The translations under genes were made by a program, and so were the position numbers. A stretch of 64,000 nt of DNA, taken from contig CANLOU010000003.1 in the NCBI GenBank assembly GCA_947492995.1, positions 434,001 through 498,000 on the forward strand, in the 5' to 3' direction. The notes below the pieces were generated by a model. It was not told the DNA's origin. It made no database searches and saw nothing but the letters and a program-made list of their open reading frames with translations. This document shows positions 7,755-60,412 of this stretch, piece by piece; the stretch's first letter is position 1; every line of letters starts with the position of its first letter. The stretch comes from an uncultured Litoreibacter sp. (GTDB lineage: Bacteria; Pseudomonadota; Alphaproteobacteria; Rhodobacterales; Rhodobacteraceae).

Positions 7755-8444
7755 ATGTACGACCCCCACGCCGATGAAAGCCCGTTCAACGCCTTGCCGC
7801 CGGTGGTGGTGCTGTTGGCGATGGTGATGGCCGCTGTTGAGATCGTCCTGCAAGCGGGGGCCAGCGGGTTCGTCGGCGGCCCGCAGGCCGTCGGATGGCG
7901 GCTGGCAGCGTTCGAAGACTACGCCTTTCTCCCCGCCGTATGGGAGTTCATGATCGGGTCCGGGCAATTCCCACTGGAACAGATGAGGCGCTTCGTCACC
8001 TATCCGTTCATCCACGGATCGTTCACCCACGCGGCCTTCGCAATTGTGATCGTGCTGGCGATCGGCAAGGCGGTCGGCGAGATATTCAGCGCTGTCTCGG
8101 TCCTAGCTGTCTTCTTCATATCTTCAATTTTTGGCGCGTTGGTCTACGGATCATTCGTCTCCATCAATGCCCCGCTGCTGGGGGGCTACCCGGGCGGCTA
8201 CGGTCTGATCGGAGCCTTCACCTTTTTGTTGTGGGTGAACCTCGCCGCTGTCGGCGCAAATTCGATGCGCGCGTTTTCGTTGATTGGGGTTTTGATGGGT
8301 ATCCAACTGGTGTTTGGCGTGCTCTTTGGTGCTGGTTACGATTGGATTGCGGACCTGAGCGGCTTCGTTGCAGGGTTCTTGCTGTCCTTCATCGTAAGCC
8401 CTGGCGGCTGGTCGCGGGTGGTCGCGAAGATCCGGCGCGATTAG
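7755..8444 (+). CDS. Rhomboid-family membrane protein, probably catalytically inactive
   Basis: A 229-residue protein with about six hydrophobic spans and the rhomboid layout: RRFVTYPFIHGSFTH in the second part matches the R-x-x-T-x-x-F-x-H-G-S-x-x-H segment. The catalytic GxSG motif is replaced by GGYPGGYGLIG and the catalytic-histidine segment (normally A-H-L-x-G-F) reads ADLSGFVAGF. Both serine and histidine of the dyad therefore seem to be missing, as in iRhom-like pseudoproteases. The ATG has CGGAGC upstream. The stop overlaps the stop of convergent murJ. Confidence 0.78.
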   Translation: MYDPHADESPFNALPPVVVLLAMVMAAVEIVLQAGASGFVGGPQAVGWRLAAFEDYAFLPAVWEFMIGSGQFPLEQMRRFVTYPFIHGSFTHAAFAIVIVLAIGKAVGEIFSAVSVLAVFFISSIFGALVYGSFVSINAPLLGGYPGGYGLIGAFTFLLWVNLAAVGANSMRAFSLIGVLMGIQLVFGVLFGAGYDWIADLSGFVAGFLLSFIVSPGGWSRVVAKIRRD

Positions 8445-9982
8445 CGGCGCAAGGACGCCTTCAACTCCGATGGTTTGAATGCGCCAAGCAGACGCCCAAA
8501 GATGGCATAGCTCGTGCCGCCCACCACAAGCAGAACGGCCAAGGCCGCATAGCGCCAACCATCCGTTTCAAGCAGAGTGCTCAACACGGCTTCCAAGCCG
8601 TAGAGAACCGCACCCATCAACAACGATGCGGCAATGATACGGGGCAGGCGGGTCTTGAACCTTGTGTCAAAGCTGGCGGCCTCGCCAAAGTCTTTAGAGT
8701 AGTGCCACAACAGCCACGCCATCGACCAACCGGCTAACGTCGTGGCAAATGCGGCGGCAAGATAGTCCAGCCACGCCCAAAGCCCCACGGCCACGACCAC
8801 ATTGACGACCATCGAGACCAGCGCGAATTTGAAAGGGCTCTTGGTATCTTCCCGCGCGAAATAGATCGGCTGGAAGATTTTTTGAAGCACGAAGGCAGGC
8901 AGACCCAAACCATAGATGGCAACGGCCAGCGCGGTGGCAGCGGCGTCCTCGCTCGTAAAGAGGCCGCGCTCAAAGAGCACGGATATCATCGGCTGGGGGA
9001 TGACAAACAATGCAACTGCGCAGGGAAGCGTCAGTGCCAAGGCTACTTCCGCCGCGCGGCTCAACGCGTCCTGTCCGCCTTTGACATCATCGGCTTGAAG
9101 GCGGCGCGACAGCTCTGGCAACAGCACGACCCCGATGGCAATGGCGACGACACCAAGTGGCAATTGATACAGGCGGTCGGCATAGTTCACCCAAGCGATC
9201 GCACCTTCGGTCCAGCTGGCCACGTTGCGACCCACCAGCAGGTTGATTTGCACCACACCGCCTGCAAGCGCCGCAGGGGCTGCAATAATTGCAAGGCGTT
9301 TCAGCTCTGGCGTCATACGGGGCATTGTCGGGACAAGGCGATACCCGGCGCGCGATGCCGCGACCCAGACCAGTGCCAATTGCGCAATGCCCGCAATTGG
9401 GACAGTCCATGCGAGGGTCAGCCCAATGTCCCAACCCGCATAGTAGGCCCCCGTCACAGCGGTGATGAAAAGAATGTTCAACAGCACCGGCGCGGCGGCT
9501 GCGGCCATGAAGCGGCCGGTCGCATTGAGAACCCCGGACAGCAATGCCGCAAGCGAGATGAACAGGATATAAGGGAATGCGATACGGCCGAAGACCGTGG
9601 CCAGTTCCAACCTCTCATCCGCCGCAAACCCCGAGGCCATAAGGAGCACCAAGGCCGGCATGAAGATTTGCGCAATGGCGGTGAAGACAATCAGGATTGT
9701 GGCCAGCCCGGTGAACGCATCACGTGCAAATTCCAGCGGCCCTTCGCCACTTTCCACCTTTTTGGAGAACATCGGCACAAAGGCCATGTTGAACGCGCCT
9801 TCGGCAAAGAAGCGTCGAAACATGTTGGGAAGGGAAAAGGCGATCAAGAAGGCCTCGGCCACTGGGCCAGAGCCCAAGAAGCCGGCAATCAGGACGTCAC
9901 GAATGAAACCAAGAATACGGCTGAGCAGCGTCCAGAGCCCGACGGTCGCAAAGCCACGCATCAATCGGCTGGGCTGGCTCAT
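8441..9982 (-). CDS. murJ: Lipid II flippase MurJ
   Basis: A 513-residue integral membrane protein of the MVF superfamily with about 14 spans. The N-terminus (GFATVGLWTLLSRILGFIRDVLIAGFLGS) and the PNMFRRFFAEGAFNMAFVP segment are hallmark MurJ sequences containing the conserved arginines of the central cavity. It moves the peptidoglycan precursor lipid II across the inner membrane. Its ATG overlaps the glnD stop (ATGA), so it is co-translated with glnD, an order common in Alphaproteobacteria. Confidence 0.95.
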   Translation of the reverse strand: MSQPSRLMRGFATVGLWTLLSRILGFIRDVLIAGFLGSGPVAEAFLIAFSLPNMFRRFFAEGAFNMAFVPMFSKKVESGEGPLEFARDAFTGLATILIVFTAIAQIFMPALVLLMASGFAADERLELATVFGRIAFPYILFISLAALLSGVLNATGRFMAAAAAPVLLNILFITAVTGAYYAGWDIGLTLAWTVPIAGIAQLALVWVAASRAGYRLVPTMPRMTPELKRLAIIAAPAALAGGVVQINLLVGRNVASWTEGAIAWVNYADRLYQLPLGVVAIAIGVVLLPELSRRLQADDVKGGQDALSRAAEVALALTLPCAVALFVIPQPMISVLFERGLFTSEDAAATALAVAIYGLGLPAFVLQKIFQPIYFAREDTKSPFKFALVSMVVNVVVAVGLWAWLDYLAAAFATTLAGWSMAWLLWHYSKDFGEAASFDTRFKTRLPRIIAASLLMGAVLYGLEAVLSTLLETDGWRYAALAVLLVVGGTSYAIFGRLLGAFKPSELKASLRR

Positions 9983-12747
9983 TTGGCCGCTCTCTCTGCG
10001 CCTTGGGTAATGGCTTTGCGTAACTTACGTTCGATACCGGCAAGCTTGTCTTTGGAATGAAATTTCAGGCCGAACATATCTTTGACGTAAAACGTATCGA
10101 CCACCTGCTCCCCATAAGTCGCGATAACGGCGGAGGCGATGTAGATGTTGGAATTTGCCAAGGTGCGCGTCAGGTCTGAAAGCAGGCCCGGACGGTCGCG
10201 GGTATCGACCTCAATGATCGTGTAGATTTCCGAGCCATCATTATCGAATGTGATGGAGGTTGGGACCTTGAATTGCGACTCGCGTTTTTTGACCTTGTCA
10301 CGATCTTTCAAGGCGTCGCGCGGCACGACTTCGCCCTTAAGGGTTTTTTCGATCATGTTTTTGAGGCGCGGCAATTTGTTGGCCTCGTAGGGATGCCCCT
10401 CGGCGTCCTGTATCCAGAAGGCAGCCGTCGCGAAACCGTCTTTGGTGGTGTAAGTGCGGGCGTCGACCACATTTGCGCCCACCAATGCCAACGCGCCGCA
10501 CATCCGCGAGAAAATGCCGGGGTGGTCGGCCATTGCGAAGCAGACACGCGTCGCGTCGCGGTCCTCATCGGGCGTAAGAGCAGTTCTGATCTCGTCGGTA
10601 TCTAGCCCGCGTAGGAGCGTTGCGAAATCAGTATGTGCGGTGACATGCAGGCCCTGCCAGTAGGGCGGGTAGTGGCGCTGCGTTTCAAGGCGCAGCAGCT
10701 TAGGCTCCCAGTCCGGGAGTGCCGCACGCAGCTTCTTTTTGGCCTCAGAGCCGCGTTCTTCGCGGTTAAGCGCTTCCATCCCGTCTTCCAAGCCGCGCCG
10801 CGTTTGGCGGTACAACGCGCGGATCAAGGAGGCCTTCCAGTTGTTCCAAGTGTCAGGCCCAACCCCGCGAATATCGCAAACGGTCAACACACAAAGCAGG
10901 TCCAGCCGTTTGACCGTCTTCACCGCTTTGGCAAAGTCCCGCACTGTCCGCGGGTCGGCGATGTCGCGCTTTTGAGCCATATCGGACATGAGCAGGTGAT
11001 AGCGGACCAACCATTCGACAGTTTCGGTTTCCTCGGCATTCAGGCCAAGTCTGGGGCAAATCTGGCGCGCAAGCTTTGCGCCAAGGATTGAATGATCTTC
11101 CTTCTGCCCTTTCCCCAAATCGTGAACCAAAAGCGCCACGTAAATGACTTTCCGGTTCACGCCGCGCTTAAGGATAGATGACGCGATCGGCAGCTCTTCC
11201 ACAAGTTCGGCGCGTTCTATCTGTGCGAGCACCGAAATTGTTTGGATGGTGTGCTCGTCGACCGTGTAGCTGTGATACATATTGAACTGCATCATCGCGA
11301 TGATCTTGCCAAACTCGGGGATGAACGCGCCAAGCACCCCAAGCTCGTTCATGCGGCGCAGTGCTCGTTCGGGGTTGCCGTGCTTAAGAAGCGTATCAAG
11401 AAAGATGCGAGAGGCATCTTTGTTCCACCGCGTTTTTTCGTCCAGCAAGTGCAGGTTTGCCGCGATCAGGCGCATGAGATTGGGATGAATGAGGTAGCCG
11501 GTTCGTAGCGCTTCTTCGAATGCGCGCAATATGTTCAGCGGGTTTTTCAGAAAGGTTTTGGGACCAGCAACGTCAAGGCGGTTCTGGCGCAGTTTGTAAC
11601 CATCTTTCAGCTTCTTGCGGCGCGCGTTGCGAAACATGGTCAGGATCGCAGGCTCTTGCTTGACGTGTTGTGCCTCAAGGTCGGTTAGCAAAATTCTGGT
11701 GAGCTCTCCTACACGCGTTGCGTGGCGAAAATAGTCTTGCATGAAATGTTCGACACCGCGTCTAGCGCTGTGGTCACGGTAGCCCATCCGACTGGCCACT
11801 TCGACTTGAATGTCAAAACTCAAAACTTCGTTGGCCCGGTTGGCGACCAAATGGAGGTGGGAGCGTGTGGCCCACAAGAAATTTTCGGCGGCGGCGAAGT
11901 CATCGCGTTCCTCAGCGGTAAAGACCTTTGCGTCTACCAGTGCGGAAACCGTCTTTACGCGTCGCGTATATTTGGCGATCCAGAACAGGGATTGCAGATC
12001 CCGCAGCCCGCCTTTGCCCTCTTTGACATTCGGTTCCACCAGATAGCGCTGGCCGCCATGCCGCCTGAGGCGCTCCGCGCGTTCTTCCAACTTTGCTTCA
12101 ACGAACTCTGTGGCGGTGTTTTTGAACAACTCCTCCCAAAGCCGTTTGTCCAGCTGCCGGGCAAGAGGCGCATGGCCATCAATCAACCGGTTTTCCAGCA
12201 GTGCCGTTCGTATCGTGAAGTCTTCCCGACCAAGCCGGAGGCAGTCTTTGATCGTTCGCGACGCGTGGCCAACCTTGAGCTTCAGATCCCAAAGTATGTA
12301 GAGCATTGATTCAATAACGCTCTCCGCCCATGGCGTGATTTTGTAGGGTGTCAGGAACAGCAAATCCACATCGGAGAAAGGCGCCATCTCTCCTCTGCCG
12401 TAGCCCCCAACAGCCATGAGGGCCAGGCGCTCTGCTTCCGTGGGATTGGCCAAAGGATGGAGGTGGTCTTGAGCCACATGAAATGCGGCGCGCACCAGGC
12501 CGTCAGTCAGAAAGGTGTAACTACGCGTAAGCTCGTAGGCGGCTTTTGGTTTGCCGACAAAGGCATCCGCAATCGCGGCGCGCCCATCAGCCTGAGCCTT
12601 CTTGAGGATAGCGACAGTTGCAGCACGCGCGGCCTTGGGCCCATCTGCCTTGCCGACAGCAGCGTCCAGCGTTTGGGTCGTCTGCGCGACATCAAAAATA
12701 GCGGACGCCGGGCAGATCAAGTTGCCCGGCGTTGTGTCTTCGGTCAT
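9979..12747 (-). CDS. glnD: PII uridylyltransferase / uridylyl-removing enzyme GlnD
   Basis: A 922-residue bifunctional enzyme that adds UMP to PII proteins when glutamine is low and removes it when high. Domains in order: nucleotidyltransferase with VGGYGRGEMAPFSDVDLLFL near residues 95-115, a helical linker, an HD hydrolase domain with LVHDLGKG near residue 495, and two C-terminal ACT domains (VCFAMADHPGIFSRMCGAL and IIEVDTRDRPGLLSDLTRTL). All catalytic residues look intact. It starts at MTEDTTPGN; the open frame upstream is not needed. Confidence 0.95.
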   Translation of the reverse strand: MTEDTTPGNLICPASAIFDVAQTTQTLDAAVGKADGPKAARAATVAILKKAQADGRAAIADAFVGKPKAAYELTRSYTFLTDGLVRAAFHVAQDHLHPLANPTEAERLALMAVGGYGRGEMAPFSDVDLLFLTPYKITPWAESVIESMLYILWDLKLKVGHASRTIKDCLRLGREDFTIRTALLENRLIDGHAPLARQLDKRLWEELFKNTATEFVEAKLEERAERLRRHGGQRYLVEPNVKEGKGGLRDLQSLFWIAKYTRRVKTVSALVDAKVFTAEERDDFAAAENFLWATRSHLHLVANRANEVLSFDIQVEVASRMGYRDHSARRGVEHFMQDYFRHATRVGELTRILLTDLEAQHVKQEPAILTMFRNARRKKLKDGYKLRQNRLDVAGPKTFLKNPLNILRAFEEALRTGYLIHPNLMRLIAANLHLLDEKTRWNKDASRIFLDTLLKHGNPERALRRMNELGVLGAFIPEFGKIIAMMQFNMYHSYTVDEHTIQTISVLAQIERAELVEELPIASSILKRGVNRKVIYVALLVHDLGKGQKEDHSILGAKLARQICPRLGLNAEETETVEWLVRYHLLMSDMAQKRDIADPRTVRDFAKAVKTVKRLDLLCVLTVCDIRGVGPDTWNNWKASLIRALYRQTRRGLEDGMEALNREERGSEAKKKLRAALPDWEPKLLRLETQRHYPPYWQGLHVTAHTDFATLLRGLDTDEIRTALTPDEDRDATRVCFAMADHPGIFSRMCGALALVGANVVDARTYTTKDGFATAAFWIQDAEGHPYEANKLPRLKNMIEKTLKGEVVPRDALKDRDKVKKRESQFKVPTSITFDNDGSEIYTIIEVDTRDRPGLLSDLTRTLANSNIYIASAVIATYGEQVVDTFYVKDMFGLKFHSKDKLAGIERKLRKAITQGAERAAK

Positions 12748-53170: not shown

Positions 53171-55243
53171 TTAGCCAGAGATCAGCCCCATCGATTCCAG
53201 CTTCAGGATCACCTGGTGCGCGCAGTTGTCGACTTCGACATTTTCGGTCTCGACGGACAGTTCAGGGTTCTCAGGCACGTCGTAGGGGTCTGAAATGCCG
53301 GTGAATTCCTTGATCTTGCCTTCGCGCGCCAGCTTATAAAGGCCCTTGCGGTCGCGCTTCTCGCATTCCTCGATGGATGTGGCGACGTGGACCTCGATGA
53401 AAGCACCGAACGCTTCGATGTCCTCACGCACGGCCCTGCGGGTCGAGGCATAAGGCGCAATGGGCGCACAAATGGCGATCCCGCCATTCTTGGTGATTTC
53501 CGAGGCAACGTAGCCGATGCGGCGGATGTTCAGGTCACGGTGTTCCTTGCTGAACCCCAGTTCCGAGGACAGGTTTTTGCGCACAATGTCGCCGTCCAGC
53601 AGCGTCACAGGGCGGCCACCCATTTCCATCAGCTTGACCATCAACGCGTTGGCGATGGTCGATTTGCCGGAGCCGGAGAAGCCGGTGAAGAACACGGTAA
53701 AGCCTTGGCTGGCCCGTGGCGGGCGCGATTTGCGCAGCTCTTCAACCACCTGCGGGAAGGAGAACCATTCAGGGATGTCCAGGCCTTCCGCCAACCGGCG
53801 GCGCAGCTCGGTGCCGGAGATGTTCAAAACAGTGACGTCGTCCTTGTCTTCGATCTCGTCGGCAGGCTCGTATTGGGCGCGGTCCTGCACATAAACCATG
53901 TGCTTAAAGTCGACCATTTCGATGCCCATTTCTTCCTGATGCTCGCGGAACAGCTCTTGTGCGTCATATGGCCCGTAGAAATCTTCGCCAGCCGAGTTCG
54001 AACCGGGGCCCGCGTGGTCGCGGCCAACGATGAAATGCGTGCAGCCGTGGTTTTTGCGGATCAGCCCGTGCCAAACCGCCTCACGAGGACCCGCCATGCG
54101 CATGGCAAGGTTCAAAAGGCTCATGGAGGTGGTGGAGGCGGGGTATTGGTCCAGCACCGCCTCATAGCAGCGAACGCGGGTGAAGTGGTCGATGTCGCCC
54201 GGTTTGGTCAGGCCCACAACGGGGTGGATCAGCAGGTTGGCCTGCGCTTCTTTGGCGGCGCGGAAGGTCAGTTCCTGATGCGCGCGGTGCAGCGGGTTGC
54301 GGGTTTGGAACGCCACCACTTTGCGCCAACCCATCTTGCGGAAGTAAGCGCGCAGCTCGTTGGGCGTGTCGCGACGGGCGCGGAAATCGTAATGCACCGG
54401 CTGTTGGATGCCTGTTACAGGCCCGCCCAGATAGATCTTGCCCGCTTGGTTGTGCAGGTAGTTCACTGCAGGGTGGGCGCTGTCATCTGCGCCGAAGACC
54501 TTTTCGGCCTCTTTCGATTTGTTTGGCTCCCAACGGTCGGTGACCGTCATGGTGCCAAGGATCACGCCCTCTTGGTCGCGCAGCGCGATGTCTTGGCCGA
54601 TCTCAAGGGAGTTCGCGAAATCTTCCGACACGTCCAGCGTGATGGGCATTGGCCACAGCTCGCCGGTGGTCAGGCGCATCGTGTCCAGGACGCTGTCGTA
54701 ATCGGCCTCGGACAGGAAGCCTTTGAGCGGGTTGAAGCCGCCATTCATCAGCAGTTCCAGATCGCAGATCTGGCGCGGCGTCAGATCGTGCGAGGTCAGG
54801 TCGGCGGCCTCCAGCTTCATCTTCTGGGCGCTGTCATAAGAGACATAAAGCTCCGGGATCGGGGCGAGGTTGTTTTCCATTTGTTTAATCCTGTTACTAA
54901 ACGGTGTTAGGCCGGTATTTGCGCCGGTCAGTTCGGCATGAAGCGCGTCATATTCCGCAAATTTGCGCGTCAGAAACGCAGTGGTCAGGCGGTTCTTTTC
55001 AGACGCGCCGCGGGTGGTCAGGGCGTAGGCAAAACGCTGGCGTTTGTCGGGGCCAGCACGGTCGCTGACCTTCACAAATCCAGCATCCGCCGCCGCCCTT
55101 AAAAGAGCATTAAGTTTGCCAAGCGAGACCCCCACGGCCTCCGCCGTCGCCCGCTGAGAGGCATCCGAGGCCAGATCCAACTGGCGCAGAAGTCGGAAGC
55201 GCAGGTCTTCCTCCTCTTGTATGGGTTTCGGTTTCGACGTCAT
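53171..55243 (-). CDS. Fusion of an EPS-associated MarR-type winged helix with ATP sulfurylase and APS kinase
   Basis: One open frame of 690 codons. Residues 1-110 match the exopolysaccharide-associated MarR family: LRFRLLRQLDL, VSLGKLNALLRAAADAGFVKV, FAYALTTRGASEKNRLTTAFLTRKFAEYDAL. A 12-residue link leads to residue 122, the usual first Met of ATP sulfurylase, with FQTRNPLHRAHQEL and GRDHAGPG. The APS kinase part has P-loop GFSGSGKS at 521-528 and ends at the stop. Together the enzymatic parts turn sulfate into PAPS. An internal ATG with an AGGA site at 54880 could also yield the enzyme alone. A 14-bp palindrome precedes the gene. Strain-level sequencing error removing a stop is possible. 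Confidence 0.85.
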   Translation of the reverse strand: MTSKPKPIQEEEDLRFRLLRQLDLASDASQRATAEAVGVSLGKLNALLRAAADAGFVKVSDRAGPDKRQRFAYALTTRGASEKNRLTTAFLTRKFAEYDALHAELTGANTGLTPFSNRIKQMENNLAPIPELYVSYDSAQKMKLEAADLTSHDLTPRQICDLELLMNGGFNPLKGFLSEADYDSVLDTMRLTTGELWPMPITLDVSEDFANSLEIGQDIALRDQEGVILGTMTVTDRWEPNKSKEAEKVFGADDSAHPAVNYLHNQAGKIYLGGPVTGIQQPVHYDFRARRDTPNELRAYFRKMGWRKVVAFQTRNPLHRAHQELTFRAAKEAQANLLIHPVVGLTKPGDIDHFTRVRCYEAVLDQYPASTTSMSLLNLAMRMAGPREAVWHGLIRKNHGCTHFIVGRDHAGPGSNSAGEDFYGPYDAQELFREHQEEMGIEMVDFKHMVYVQDRAQYEPADEIEDKDDVTVLNISGTELRRRLAEGLDIPEWFSFPQVVEELRKSRPPRASQGFTVFFTGFSGSGKSTIANALMVKLMEMGGRPVTLLDGDIVRKNLSSELGFSKEHRDLNIRRIGYVASEITKNGGIAICAPIAPYASTRRAVREDIEAFGAFIEVHVATSIEECEKRDRKGLYKLAREGKIKEFTGISDPYDVPENPELSVETENVEVDNCAHQVILKLESMGLISG
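54878..54893 (-). promoter_or_regulatory. sat-cysC: Internal ribosome-binding site and ATG for ATP sulfurylase/APS kinase alone
   Basis: On the minus strand CAGGATTAAACAA precedes an in-frame ATG (54880-54878). AGGA lies eight bases from the ATG. The resulting 569-residue protein starts MENNLAPIPELYVSY, the standard family N-terminus. Both the fused and the short form may exist. Confidence 0.6.
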
Positions 55244-55262
55244 CACTCGCGACTCAATGTAT

Positions 55263-55276
55263 GTTCATGCGTGAAC
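55263..55276. promoter_or_regulatory. Palindrome upstream of the regulator-sulfurylase gene
   Basis: GTTCA-TGCG-TGAAC, a perfect inverted repeat 16-20 bases upstream of the start codon. The position is typical of an autoregulatory operator for a winged-helix repressor. No independent evidence. Confidence 0.5.
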
Positions 55277-57629: not shown

Positions 57630-58454
57630 TCAGCCGCCTTCGCGCAAGGCGCGAACCTCAAACGAGGTCAGCCGCTGCGTCAGCTGCGGTCCGAAACTTT
57701 CCAGAGATCGTGCCTGCGGGAACAGGCGCAGCAGCGAATAAAGCATCTCGTCATCCAGCAAGGTTTCGGCAAAGGGGCCGGGGTGGAAACTTTCCACCTC
57801 CACCCCGTTGGCCAGAATGGTCGCCTGACGGTCAAAGGCCAGATTGAACAGCGAGATCGACGAAATCGGAGTGATCGAGATCACCTGCACCCCGTCCTCA
57901 AAGGCGCGGACCGGCGCAAACGCCAGGTCCACGCCAAACAGCGCCTTACAGGCAGCATGGCGCATCAGGATATGAGACCGGGGGGCCAACATCAGGTCAG
58001 AGGCGGGCTTTGCAAGCCCGAACGCATCGCTGGTCACCCGGAATAGCTTGCCGCGTTCGCTGGTCTGCGCGTCGCGCGGCGTCATGTCATAAGAGCCGAC
58101 CCATTGGAGGGGCAGGGGGCCGTATTCACTGGTTAACACGCCCATACCGGGCGCCAGATCTTCGACAGCAACTGGCCCTTGGGTGGTCGAAATCAGCGTG
58201 CCACGCGCCACATTGGCGCAGGCGCTTTCGATCACCGGAACAGAGGGGGCCATGATGGTGTCGTAGGAAACCTCACCGGGATGCGACATCCAGGCGATAT
58301 TGTAGGGGCGCGACATAACATGCGCCCGCACTGGCGCGTGGGGCAGAGGACCCCGCAGAGGCGCGCGCGACGTGGAGGAGGGAGCGGAACCGAAATCCGG
58401 GTTGGAGGCCATCTGCTGGTCAACGCCGAAGCGTGGGGCGGGTGAGTAGGTCAT
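57630..58454 (-). CDS. Hedgehog/intein (Hint) domain protein
   Basis: A 274-residue protein. The Hint fold starts near residue 78 (ACANVARGTLISTTQGPVAVEDLAPGMGVLTSEYGPLPLQWVG), with a cysteine as potential splice or cleavage nucleophile and LAPRSHILMRH as the His motif. Residues 1-75 are low complexity with no calcium-binding repeats visible. Hint proteins of this type are common in Rhodobacteraceae and may cleave themselves; role unknown. Confidence 0.82.
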   Translation of the reverse strand: MTYSPAPRFGVDQQMASNPDFGSAPSSTSRAPLRGPLPHAPVRAHVMSRPYNIAWMSHPGEVSYDTIMAPSVPVIESACANVARGTLISTTQGPVAVEDLAPGMGVLTSEYGPLPLQWVGSYDMTPRDAQTSERGKLFRVTSDAFGLAKPASDLMLAPRSHILMRHAACKALFGVDLAFAPVRAFEDGVQVISITPISSISLFNLAFDRQATILANGVEVESFHPGPFAETLLDDEMLYSLLRLFPQARSLESFGPQLTQRLTSFEVRALREGG

Positions 58455-58768: not shown

Positions 58769-60412
58769 GTGCTCAGCAACGACCAAATCAAATCCCGCTT
58801 CGCCAAGGCCCGCAAGGCGCAGGCCGCTGGCCGCCTGACCGAGGCCGCCGCGGGCTACCGCGCCCTCATCAAACAGGCCCCAAATCTGGCGGAGGCTTAT
58901 TTCAATCTGGCGGAAATCTTCTCCACCAAAGCGATGTTCGGCGAGGCGGGGCCAAATTATGAAGCGGCATTGAAGCTCCGCCCGCAGGAGCCCGCGATCT
59001 GGCTGTCCTACCTTAATATGGCTGAACGCCACCCCAACACCGACAATCTGGCGCGTTTGCTGACCCGCGCGCAGCCCGTGGTTGGGCATTTGCCCGCCTT
59101 CGGGTTTCTCAGCGGTATGGTCTGTGTCCGGCGCGGGGCGACGGAAGACGCGTTGCCGTTGTTCAAATCCGCCATCGCAAAAGGCTTCAACGCGCCGCGT
59201 GCATATGTGGAATATGGGGTGGCGCTGGCCGCGCTGGGACGCAATGACGATGCCTTGGTGCAGTACCAGCACGCGCTGGCCAAACAACCCAACAACTCGT
59301 TTGCCTTGGCGCGCAAAAGCGAATTGCTGCGCGACATGGGGCAGTTTGAGGAGGCGCTTGCCACAGCCCGCGGCGCGATCGCGTATACGCCGGAGTCGGC
59401 GCCACTGTATTATACCTACTGCTCCATCGCGAAGGTGCAGGCGGGCGATCCGATGATTGCCAACATGGAGACGCTGGCGAAGAAGCCCGCACTTGATGAT
59501 CCGTCGAAGACGTTTCTTGGCCACGCGTTGGCCAAGGCTGCGGAAGACACTGGCGATAAGGCCAACGTTTTTGGCTACCTCAAGATGGGCAATGACGCCA
59601 ACCTGCGCGCGCATCCGTTCGATATTGAACAGGACCGCCGCAGTGTGGCGGAGTTTCAGGCGGCGTATTTGAAAATGGAGGGCGGGGCGTCTGACGATGC
59701 GTCAGATGTCGCGCCGATTTTTGTGACGGGGCTGCCGCGGTCGGGCACCACCTTGGTGGAGCAAATCCTGAGCACGGATGCGGGCATTGAAGGCGGTGGA
59801 GAGTTGGGCATCCTGGGTGACATGTTCGCGGCCTCTTGGGACGGGGCCATTTCACCGCAGGCTTTGAGCAAGATAGGCCATGACTATGCGGCACAATTGG
59901 TCAAACGCTTCCCCGATGCGCGGCAGGTAACCGACAAATCTATCAGCACCTATGCCCAGATCGGCTTCGTCAAGCGGGCGCTGCCCAACGCCAAGATCGT
60001 GGTGGTGCGGCGTGATCCGGCTGATAATGCGCTGTCGATCTACAAGAACATGTTTGCGCCGGGCACGCATCGGTACGCCTCCAGCCTGACCGGGATCGCG
60101 CAGTTCATGCGGCTGTTTGAAAGCCAGCTGGATTTTTGGCGGCAGCATTGCCCCGATGATTTTGTCGAGATCAGTTACGAGACCTTGACCACGGAGCCGG
60201 AGCCGCAAATACGCGCTTTGGTGGATGCGGTGGGGCTGGAGTGGGATGATGGCTTCCTCGCGTCGCATGAAAATACGCGCAAGATTACGACCTTGTCGGC
60301 GGCGCAGGTGCGCCAGCCGATTTATGCGTCCTCGGTGAAGGCCTCCGCGAAATATGAGACGGAGTTGGAGCCGTTTCTGACGGAATACGCGAAACTGGAC
60401 CCTTTGAAATAA
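58769..60412 (+). CDS. TPR-containing sulfotransferase
   Basis: A 547-residue protein starting at GTG with AGAGGG upstream. Residues 1-280 hold tetratricopeptide-like helix pairs (AGYRALIKQAPNLAEAYFNLAEIF, ALVQYQHALAKQPNNSFALARKS). Residues 310-540 are a sulfotransferase-3 type domain: the PAPS 5'-phosphosulfate loop VTGLPRSGTTLVEQIL near residue 318 and the 3'-phosphate strand VVVRRDPADNALSIYKNMF. Relatives sulfate proteins or glycans. It would use PAPS made by the sulfurylase/kinase at 53-55 kb. Confidence 0.88.
   Translation: MLSNDQIKSRFAKARKAQAAGRLTEAAAGYRALIKQAPNLAEAYFNLAEIFSTKAMFGEAGPNYEAALKLRPQEPAIWLSYLNMAERHPNTDNLARLLTRAQPVVGHLPAFGFLSGMVCVRRGATEDALPLFKSAIAKGFNAPRAYVEYGVALAALGRNDDALVQYQHALAKQPNNSFALARKSELLRDMGQFEEALATARGAIAYTPESAPLYYTYCSIAKVQAGDPMIANMETLAKKPALDDPSKTFLGHALAKAAEDTGDKANVFGYLKMGNDANLRAHPFDIEQDRRSVAEFQAAYLKMEGGASDDASDVAPIFVTGLPRSGTTLVEQILSTDAGIEGGGELGILGDMFAASWDGAISPQALSKIGHDYAAQLVKRFPDARQVTDKSISTYAQIGFVKRALPNAKIVVVRRDPADNALSIYKNMFAPGTHRYASSLTGIAQFMRLFESQLDFWRQHCPDDFVEISYETLTTEPEPQIRALVDAVGLEWDDGFLASHENTRKITTLSAAQVRQPIYASSVKASAKYETELEPFLTEYAKLDPLK

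Follow-up and report, generated by a model that had tools for sequence, protein, structure and literature searches.

A MarR-type winged helix fused to a sulfate-activating enzyme in Rhodobacterales, with a predicted operator and an internal start: a probable self-regulating gene

Bifunctional sulfate adenylyltransferase/adenylylsulfate kinases of the PRK05537 type include the Aquifex aeolicus enzyme 2gks, which has the same entire enzyme part and the same domain order as the fusion protein described here. With 546 residues, however, 2gks leaves no room for a DNA-binding domain, whereas the fusion has about 120 extra N-terminal residues and a predicted operator. The MarR_EPS family (TIGR04176) shares with the fusion its winged helix, recognition-helix residues and palindrome half-sites, but its members are free-standing and, in genomes G056 (by Pfam) and G011 (by eye), lie beside polysaccharide-type genes, while the fusion occupies a housekeeping locus. 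A winged helix is also part of BirA, for which we know of no conserved internal start that would yield the enzyme without its DNA-binding domain. PMC4861984 presents BirA as a biotin ligase that represses its own pathway, and as an enzyme doubling as a repressor it offers a functional analogy to the fusion, although the enzyme is unrelated. BzdR-type regulators, as described in PMC3602430, likewise join a DNA-binding domain to an enzyme-derived domain; BzdR is a regulator, whereas the enzyme motifs of the fusion look complete. The two-domain layout of the fusion's enzyme part recurs in Penicillium ATP sulfurylase (1i2d), its best match by sequence in the PDB. PMC3734648 and PMC4220642 describe the Penicillium enzyme as a hexamer under PAPS control through an APS-kinase-like domain, which according to the former is inactive and allosteric. 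The Penicillium enzyme has no DNA-binding domain.

Here we describe a gene in which, by its sequence, a MarR_EPS-type winged helix is genuinely fused to a Sat-CysC enzyme. It lies in a window of 64,000 nucleotides (the whole stretch of DNA analysed) from an uncultured Litoreibacter sp. We consider it probable that the gene constitutes a self-regulating sulfate-activation unit, the long form of which would repress its own promoter while the short form would serve as plain enzyme. If this is true, a sulfate-activating enzyme of the Rhodobacterales, a major marine group, would be linked directly to its own gene. In the open PMC literature (subscription papers being outside this scope), no description of the fusion was found in titles or abstract starts among the matches listed, and the combination of a sulfate-activating enzyme with a polysaccharide-type regulator domain and with a private operator and an internal start, both conserved, appears to be new. 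The features of the locus, in window coordinates, are as follows:

53171..55246, minus strand: long open reading frame of 691 aa comprising winged helix, ATP sulfurylase and APS kinase (ORF translation and profile matches)
53207..53716, minus strand: APS kinase domain, residues 511-680 (TIGR00455; P-loop GFSGSGKST in the translation)
53729..54835, minus strand: ATP sulfurylase domain, residues 138-506 (TIGR00339)
54878..54880, minus strand: internal start codon of the predicted short (569 aa) form (start codons only at this place)
54881..54925, minus strand: linker, residues 108-122, the end of the long helix followed by predicted disorder from 113 (ELTG, AF2)
54890..54892, minus strand: AGG codon, core of the predicted internal Shine-Dalgarno (AGG conservation, synonymous diversity)
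54926..55213, minus strand: MarR_EPS-type winged helix with long C-terminal helix, residues 12-107 (TIGR04176, AF2, PDB folds)
55085..55123, minus strand: predicted recognition helix, residues 42-54 (AF2 helix H42-54)
55263..55276, no strand assigned: palindrome GTTCA-N4-TGAAC, predicted operator, directly upstream of the long-form start (conservation with the domain)

The long reading frame begins at GTG 55246, with an alternative ATG at 55243, and is open over 691 codons to the stop at 53171-53173 (minus strand). Residues 121-690 score 1039 bits with the PRK05537 profile, the cut-off of which is 669 (NCBIfam), and so belong to that family of bifunctional sulfate adenylyltransferase/adenylylsulfate kinases. 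QTRNPLHRAHQ, GRDHAGPG and the P-loop GFSGSGKST are all found in the translation, and we take them to be ATP sulfurylase and APS kinase active-site motifs. Judged by profile and motifs, the PAPS-making part is complete, as an earlier sequence-only reading of this DNA had proposed, and catalysis is predicted.

The N-terminal part scored alone reaches 88.9 bits with TIGR04176, above the cut-off of 88, and the entire protein 84.2 bits, below it (both NCBIfam). An AF2 model of the winged helix has a mean pLDDT of 83.8, with a helix at 78-112 and pLDDT under 50 at 113-120 and 123-126; its top Foldseek matches in the PDB are MarR-family regulators (E 5.7e-5, TM 0.53). As modelled, the domain has the MarR fold, a winged helix with a long C-terminal helix. 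Across 58 sequences, both fused and free-standing, neither S41, directly before the predicted recognition helix, nor G43, within that helix, varies. A full-length AF2 model was poor (mean pLDDT 59.6, with values under 50 at 115-140) and was set aside, only the winged-helix model being used here.

That a MarR-like domain runs in frame and without a stop into a PAPS-making enzyme had been suggested from the window's letters alone, and a search of databases for the same fusion finds it in many Rhodobacterales relatives. Among 21 congeneric genomes, the junction is fully open in 11 and present at the edge of a contig in a twelfth; in seven the enzyme lacks a winged helix, and the fragmentation of the last two allows no judgement. 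Both parts stand in one open frame in 79 of 80 public contigs, the 80th being cut by the contig end, and the titles of these contigs include Litoreibacter, Roseovarius, Shimia, Phaeobacter and Leisingera; because the 80 are the best of 123 by similarity to the MarR part, and not a frequency sample, they establish that the junction is real without giving its frequency. A sequencing error or hidden stop is ruled out by the open junction in congeners, public contigs and genomes of the order.

Across 244 Rhodobacterales genomes, fused MarR_EPS domains occur in at least 75, one per genome (listed rows of 71 bits or more, counted by hand). These 75 rows score 71-99 bits in open frames of 690-788 aa, the 23 listed free-standing MarR_EPS rows score 125-155 bits in frames of 111-199 aa, and below both groups the listed matches have about 32 bits or less. 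The TIGR04176 cut-off is passed by 29 of the 75 listed fused rows, which counts against our explanation; an E-value of 0.001 taken alone is unspecific for the family, as 7 of 14 control genomes match at that level, none of them above the cut-off. Sat-CysC was found in 181 of 196 genomes of the order, and the best 150 of these 181 comprise 66 fused and 84 unfused enzymes. Since so many relatives (84 of the 150 listed) do without it, the winged helix is dispensable, a second point against our explanation. In 289 genomes across the class, fusion-length frames were seen only in the window's genome and in G021, of the same family, among the 51 matches listed. Neither a second Sat-CysC nor a CysD above its cut-off was seen in the 21 genomes of the genus, which marks the fusion product as the main sulfate-activating enzyme.

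An internal start able to supply the enzyme alone had also been anticipated, and it is found at ATG 54880, from which 569 aa would be translated. Its predicted Shine-Dalgarno reads ACAGGA in the window and in most relatives. All 85 unique fused loci use AGG for the Arg codon 12 nt upstream of this start, whereas elsewhere in the same ORFs AGG makes up 40 of 4371 Arg codons (0.9%); the start residue itself is encoded by start codons only (ATG 76, GTG 8, TTG 1; n = 85). The AGG codon shows a synonymous diversity of 0.00 and the codon preceding it 0.02, compared with 0.54 for winged helix plus linker and 0.47 for the first enzyme part. Unfused enzyme genes start at about the same residue (by eye). 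By these patterns the internal start is under nucleotide-level selection, from which we predict two forms, one long and one short; a silent relic is unlikely, since it would not preserve the constraint on the AGG and start codons, and the 569-aa enzyme is very probably made alongside the long form.

The long form, we argue, is made too, because the winged helix is constrained as protein, with an amino-acid diversity of 0.25 versus a synonymous diversity of 0.54. The opposite reading, that only the short form is made and that the upstream frame is a chance-open remnant of a separate MarR gene, would accommodate the strong internal start and the enzymes that lack the domain in seven congeners and in 84 of 150 listed rows of the order. 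We regard it as highly improbable: the frame is open in 79 of the best 80 of 123 contigs and is at least 690 aa long in all 75 listed fused rows, the diversity values of the domain speak for a constrained protein, the linker has a fixed length (ELTG precedes the internal start by exactly 18 codons in 86 of 86 fused loci), and the operator is kept before the long start.

The upstream palindrome of which the sequence-only reading spoke is present at 55263-55276, equivalent to G000:C3:489263-489276 in the window's own genome. Of 92 fused rows (a number that includes duplicates, 85 being unique), 91 carry an exact GTTCA-N4-TGAAC ahead of the long start, and the remaining one, L077 (Nereida), differs by one mismatch. 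The palindrome begins 387-415 nt ahead of the internal start in fused rows; where the long frame offers an in-frame ATG (73 of 85 loci), the first such ATG follows the beginning of the palindrome by 27-49 nt. Within 650 nt upstream of 47 unfused Sat-CysC loci no exact copy was found, three having a one-mismatch match, and the seven congeners without winged helix likewise have no exact copy. By sequence, then, the predicted operator is conserved where the domain is encoded and missing where it is not. In the set of sequences used for a Sat tree it accompanies 62 of 63 fused and 0 of 47 unfused genes; over nine supported independent contrasts it follows the domain in a mean of 8.9 and never does the opposite (p ~0.004), a joint loss that is partly mechanical because operator and domain adjoin.

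A second, one-mismatch palindrome lies about 32 nt (three helical turns) further upstream at L004, L006, L007, L008, L067, L081, L095, L105 and other loci, and this doubling suggests cooperative binding at those loci. The window's locus has no second upstream copy.

Repression is assumed from the position of the palindrome. MarR-type repressors usually act close before the start codon, and the distance of 27-49 nt to the first in-frame ATG corresponds to this usual place. It argues against a different role, in which the winged helix would be an activator of its own gene, or a roadblock or antitermination factor. Such a role seems unlikely to us, but mapping of consensus hexamers upstream of fused genes placed no promoter relative to the palindrome, and free-standing MarR_EPS genes adjoin NusG-like genes (in G056 by Pfam, at L219 and L123 by eye), both of which are consistent with it.

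In the self-regulating unit that we favour, one gene would give rise to two proteins, and we infer that both are translated. The long form likely binds GTTCA-N4-TGAAC in its own promoter or leader and most likely represses, rather than activates, transcription, whereas the short form, from the internal Shine-Dalgarno and ATG, would be a plain bifunctional enzyme. As both forms contain the enzyme part, they would probably make mixed oligomers, in which case operator occupancy would track the enzyme level and possibly the APS/PAPS ligand state.

A metabolite-gated trigger enzyme, in which APS or PAPS at the enzyme would switch DNA binding by the long form and the promoter would thereby read pathway output, goes further, and we entertain it as a possibility that falls somewhat short of an even chance. 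The solved structures closest by sequence are the ATP sulfurylases 1i2d and 1m8p, which we take to be fungal, and the PAPS control of the Penicillium enzyme indicates that this fold can couple PAPS to conformation, as it might in the fusion; the active-site motifs, moreover, are kept in the fusion translation. Against such gating stand a linker predicted to be disordered, the lack of any residue or model sign of coupling between enzyme and winged helix, and the fact that simple concentration feedback accounts for the data equally well.

The palindrome is also found in the wider MarR_EPS family. Up to 400 nt upstream of free-standing MarR_EPS genes of the order, an exact N4 palindrome occurs at 12 of 22 loci (1 of 4400 shuffles). 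A separate count that scores L123 as a miss gives 11 exact and 16 of 22 within one mismatch; the L123 locus does carry an exact palindrome. Twenty of these 22 loci come from the 23 strong free-standing rows and the other two from genomes of the genus, and the rows are not all independent, L114 and L115 being near-copies. In the wider phylum (L228-L243; of 14 loci placed, two are from the window's class), 13 of 16 free-standing MarR_EPS genes have an exact GTTCA-N5-TGAAC (2 of 3200 shuffles), and one of the 16 has an exact N4 palindrome within 400 nt upstream. Among 22 weaker relatives of the winged helix in the class (L149-L170), 21 have the exact N5 form (2 of 4400 shuffles). Six strong free-standing genes of the class have exact N4 in none, N5 in two and GCTCA-N4-TGAAC in three.

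From these counts the half-site is widely conserved, and the N4 spacing is common to fused genes and to free-standing ones within the same order. Outside the order the spacing is mostly N5, and this mismatch counts against our explanation. The half-sites shared by fused genes and free-standing MarR_EPS are a feature found here and not part of the official family definition. They amount to a predicted operator for MarR_EPS, with spacing one base shorter in Rhodobacterales, and add to a family named in just two papers of the open literature searched. The weaker relatives L149-L170 have open frames of about 200-340 aa, and L165 has an APS-kinase-like gene nearby.

Five exact palindromes occur in the window's genome, compared with two for a reversed-pattern control. 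Besides the fusion's own site, three are inside ORFs and one lies between the ends of two convergent ORFs (by eye), so that no further promoter-like exact site was found in this genome, and regulation of further sulfur genes through such a site is not seen there. In the 4.6 Mb of G163 the sat promoter holds the only exact site, although that genome also has a free-standing MarR_EPS gene. Five other genomes have 16 exact sites in total versus 8 for reversed-pattern controls: five at sat promoters, two at free-standing MarR_EPS promoters, seven in or across ORFs, one intergenic (L227) and one at G011:C50. Of these genomes, G001 has two exact sites versus three controls.

An exopolysaccharide-gene neighbourhood, the location associated with MarR_EPS, was not found around the fusion within flanks of up to 6 kb. 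Its neighbours are instead a trxB-like gene (76 of 79 contigs), an AsnC-type regulator (74 of 79), and purE-like (42 of 79) and purK-like (41 of 79) genes, named by eye except for Pfam matches. The fusion is apparently, on this genomic evidence, a housekeeping sulfate-activation gene that regulates itself. The sequence-only reading had seen in it a direct link to the control of polysaccharide genes; for this genome, the housekeeping locus and the want of another promoter-like exact site speak against that claim. More generally, the fused regulator might control polysaccharide genes in addition to its own, since the same operator precedes free-standing MarR_EPS genes, G011 and G214 have exact sites at both sat and free-standing MarR_EPS so that cross-talk could occur there, the MarR_EPS gene of G056 adjoins sat-cysC in a polysaccharide cluster, and a TPR-sulfotransferase gene lies in the window at 58769-60412. 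We nevertheless rate such wider control as improbable, given the single exact site in G163, the absence of a promoter-like one beyond the fusion's own in the window's genome, and a sulfotransferase gene close to the fusion in just 6 of 79 contigs.

That TPR protein, encoded on the plus strand about 3.5 kb from the fusion, has a sulfotransferase domain (PF13469, PF00685) and may use PAPS. A Hint-domain protein (PF13403) is encoded in the window at 57633-58454 (minus strand).

The Sat tree comprises 110 enzyme sequences and requires 18 changes of the fused state, nine of these being forced by supported branches. It contains 63 fused rows, left after removal of nine loci that were duplicated or truncated, of short loci and of rows more than 96.5% alike, and 47 unfused rows, namely 40 of the 84 listed unfused rows of the order and the seven congeners. 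In a tree of winged helices (37 fused and 21 free-standing rows, without L123, the locus of which is cut short), all fused domains fall on one side of a 100/100 branch from the free-standing ones. This branch and the identical junction argue for one origin followed by repeated loss; separate gains of the fusion are not favoured, the fused domains forming one side of that branch.

As to where the fusion arose, G056 may provide a model. Its polysaccharide cluster includes Polysacc_synt_2, UDP-glucose dehydrogenase, UDP-GlcNAc 2-epimerase and glycosyl transferase genes (Pfam). Within the cluster a free-standing MarR_EPS gene and a NusG-like gene are arranged head to head, and between them lies an exact palindrome, which falls inside the longest reading of the NusG-like ORF. 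A second, unfused sat-cysC lies 258 nt past the MarR_EPS gene. The features of this locus (L244, G056:C5:12000-31999), in its own coordinates, are:

8000-9709, minus strand: sat-cysC
9971-10291, minus strand: MarR_EPS

Among the 22 free-standing loci of the order, that of G056 alone has Sat within a 1.5-kb flank; by eye, the setting of a second sat-cysC in G211 is similar. No free-standing regulator is on average closer to the fused set than that of G056 (46% identity), though the winged-helix tree does not single it out. It is a reasonable guess from this arrangement that the fusion was born in a polysaccharide cluster like that of G056.

Taken to its furthest extent, the gene could encode a trigger enzyme of a new class: a PAPS synthetase would sense its product and directly switch its own promoter, with the conserved internal start setting the ratio of regulator to enzyme. 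The fusion would have arisen once, from a polysaccharide-cluster regulator and the neighbouring sat-cysC, and would have been lost many times together with its operator. We put this forward tentatively and think it doubtful as a whole. The elements of the proposed self-regulating unit, namely the protein, the 14-bp site and the internal start, are all open to ordinary bench testing, and because the unit has been lost repeatedly, genes that have it can be compared in nature with genes that lack it.

Beyond G056, free-standing MarR_EPS genes at L219 (G011) and L123 (G224) lie head to head with or near NusG/RfaH-like genes (by eye), and at L219 the palindrome is placed between the MarR_EPS gene and the NusG/RfaH-like gene.
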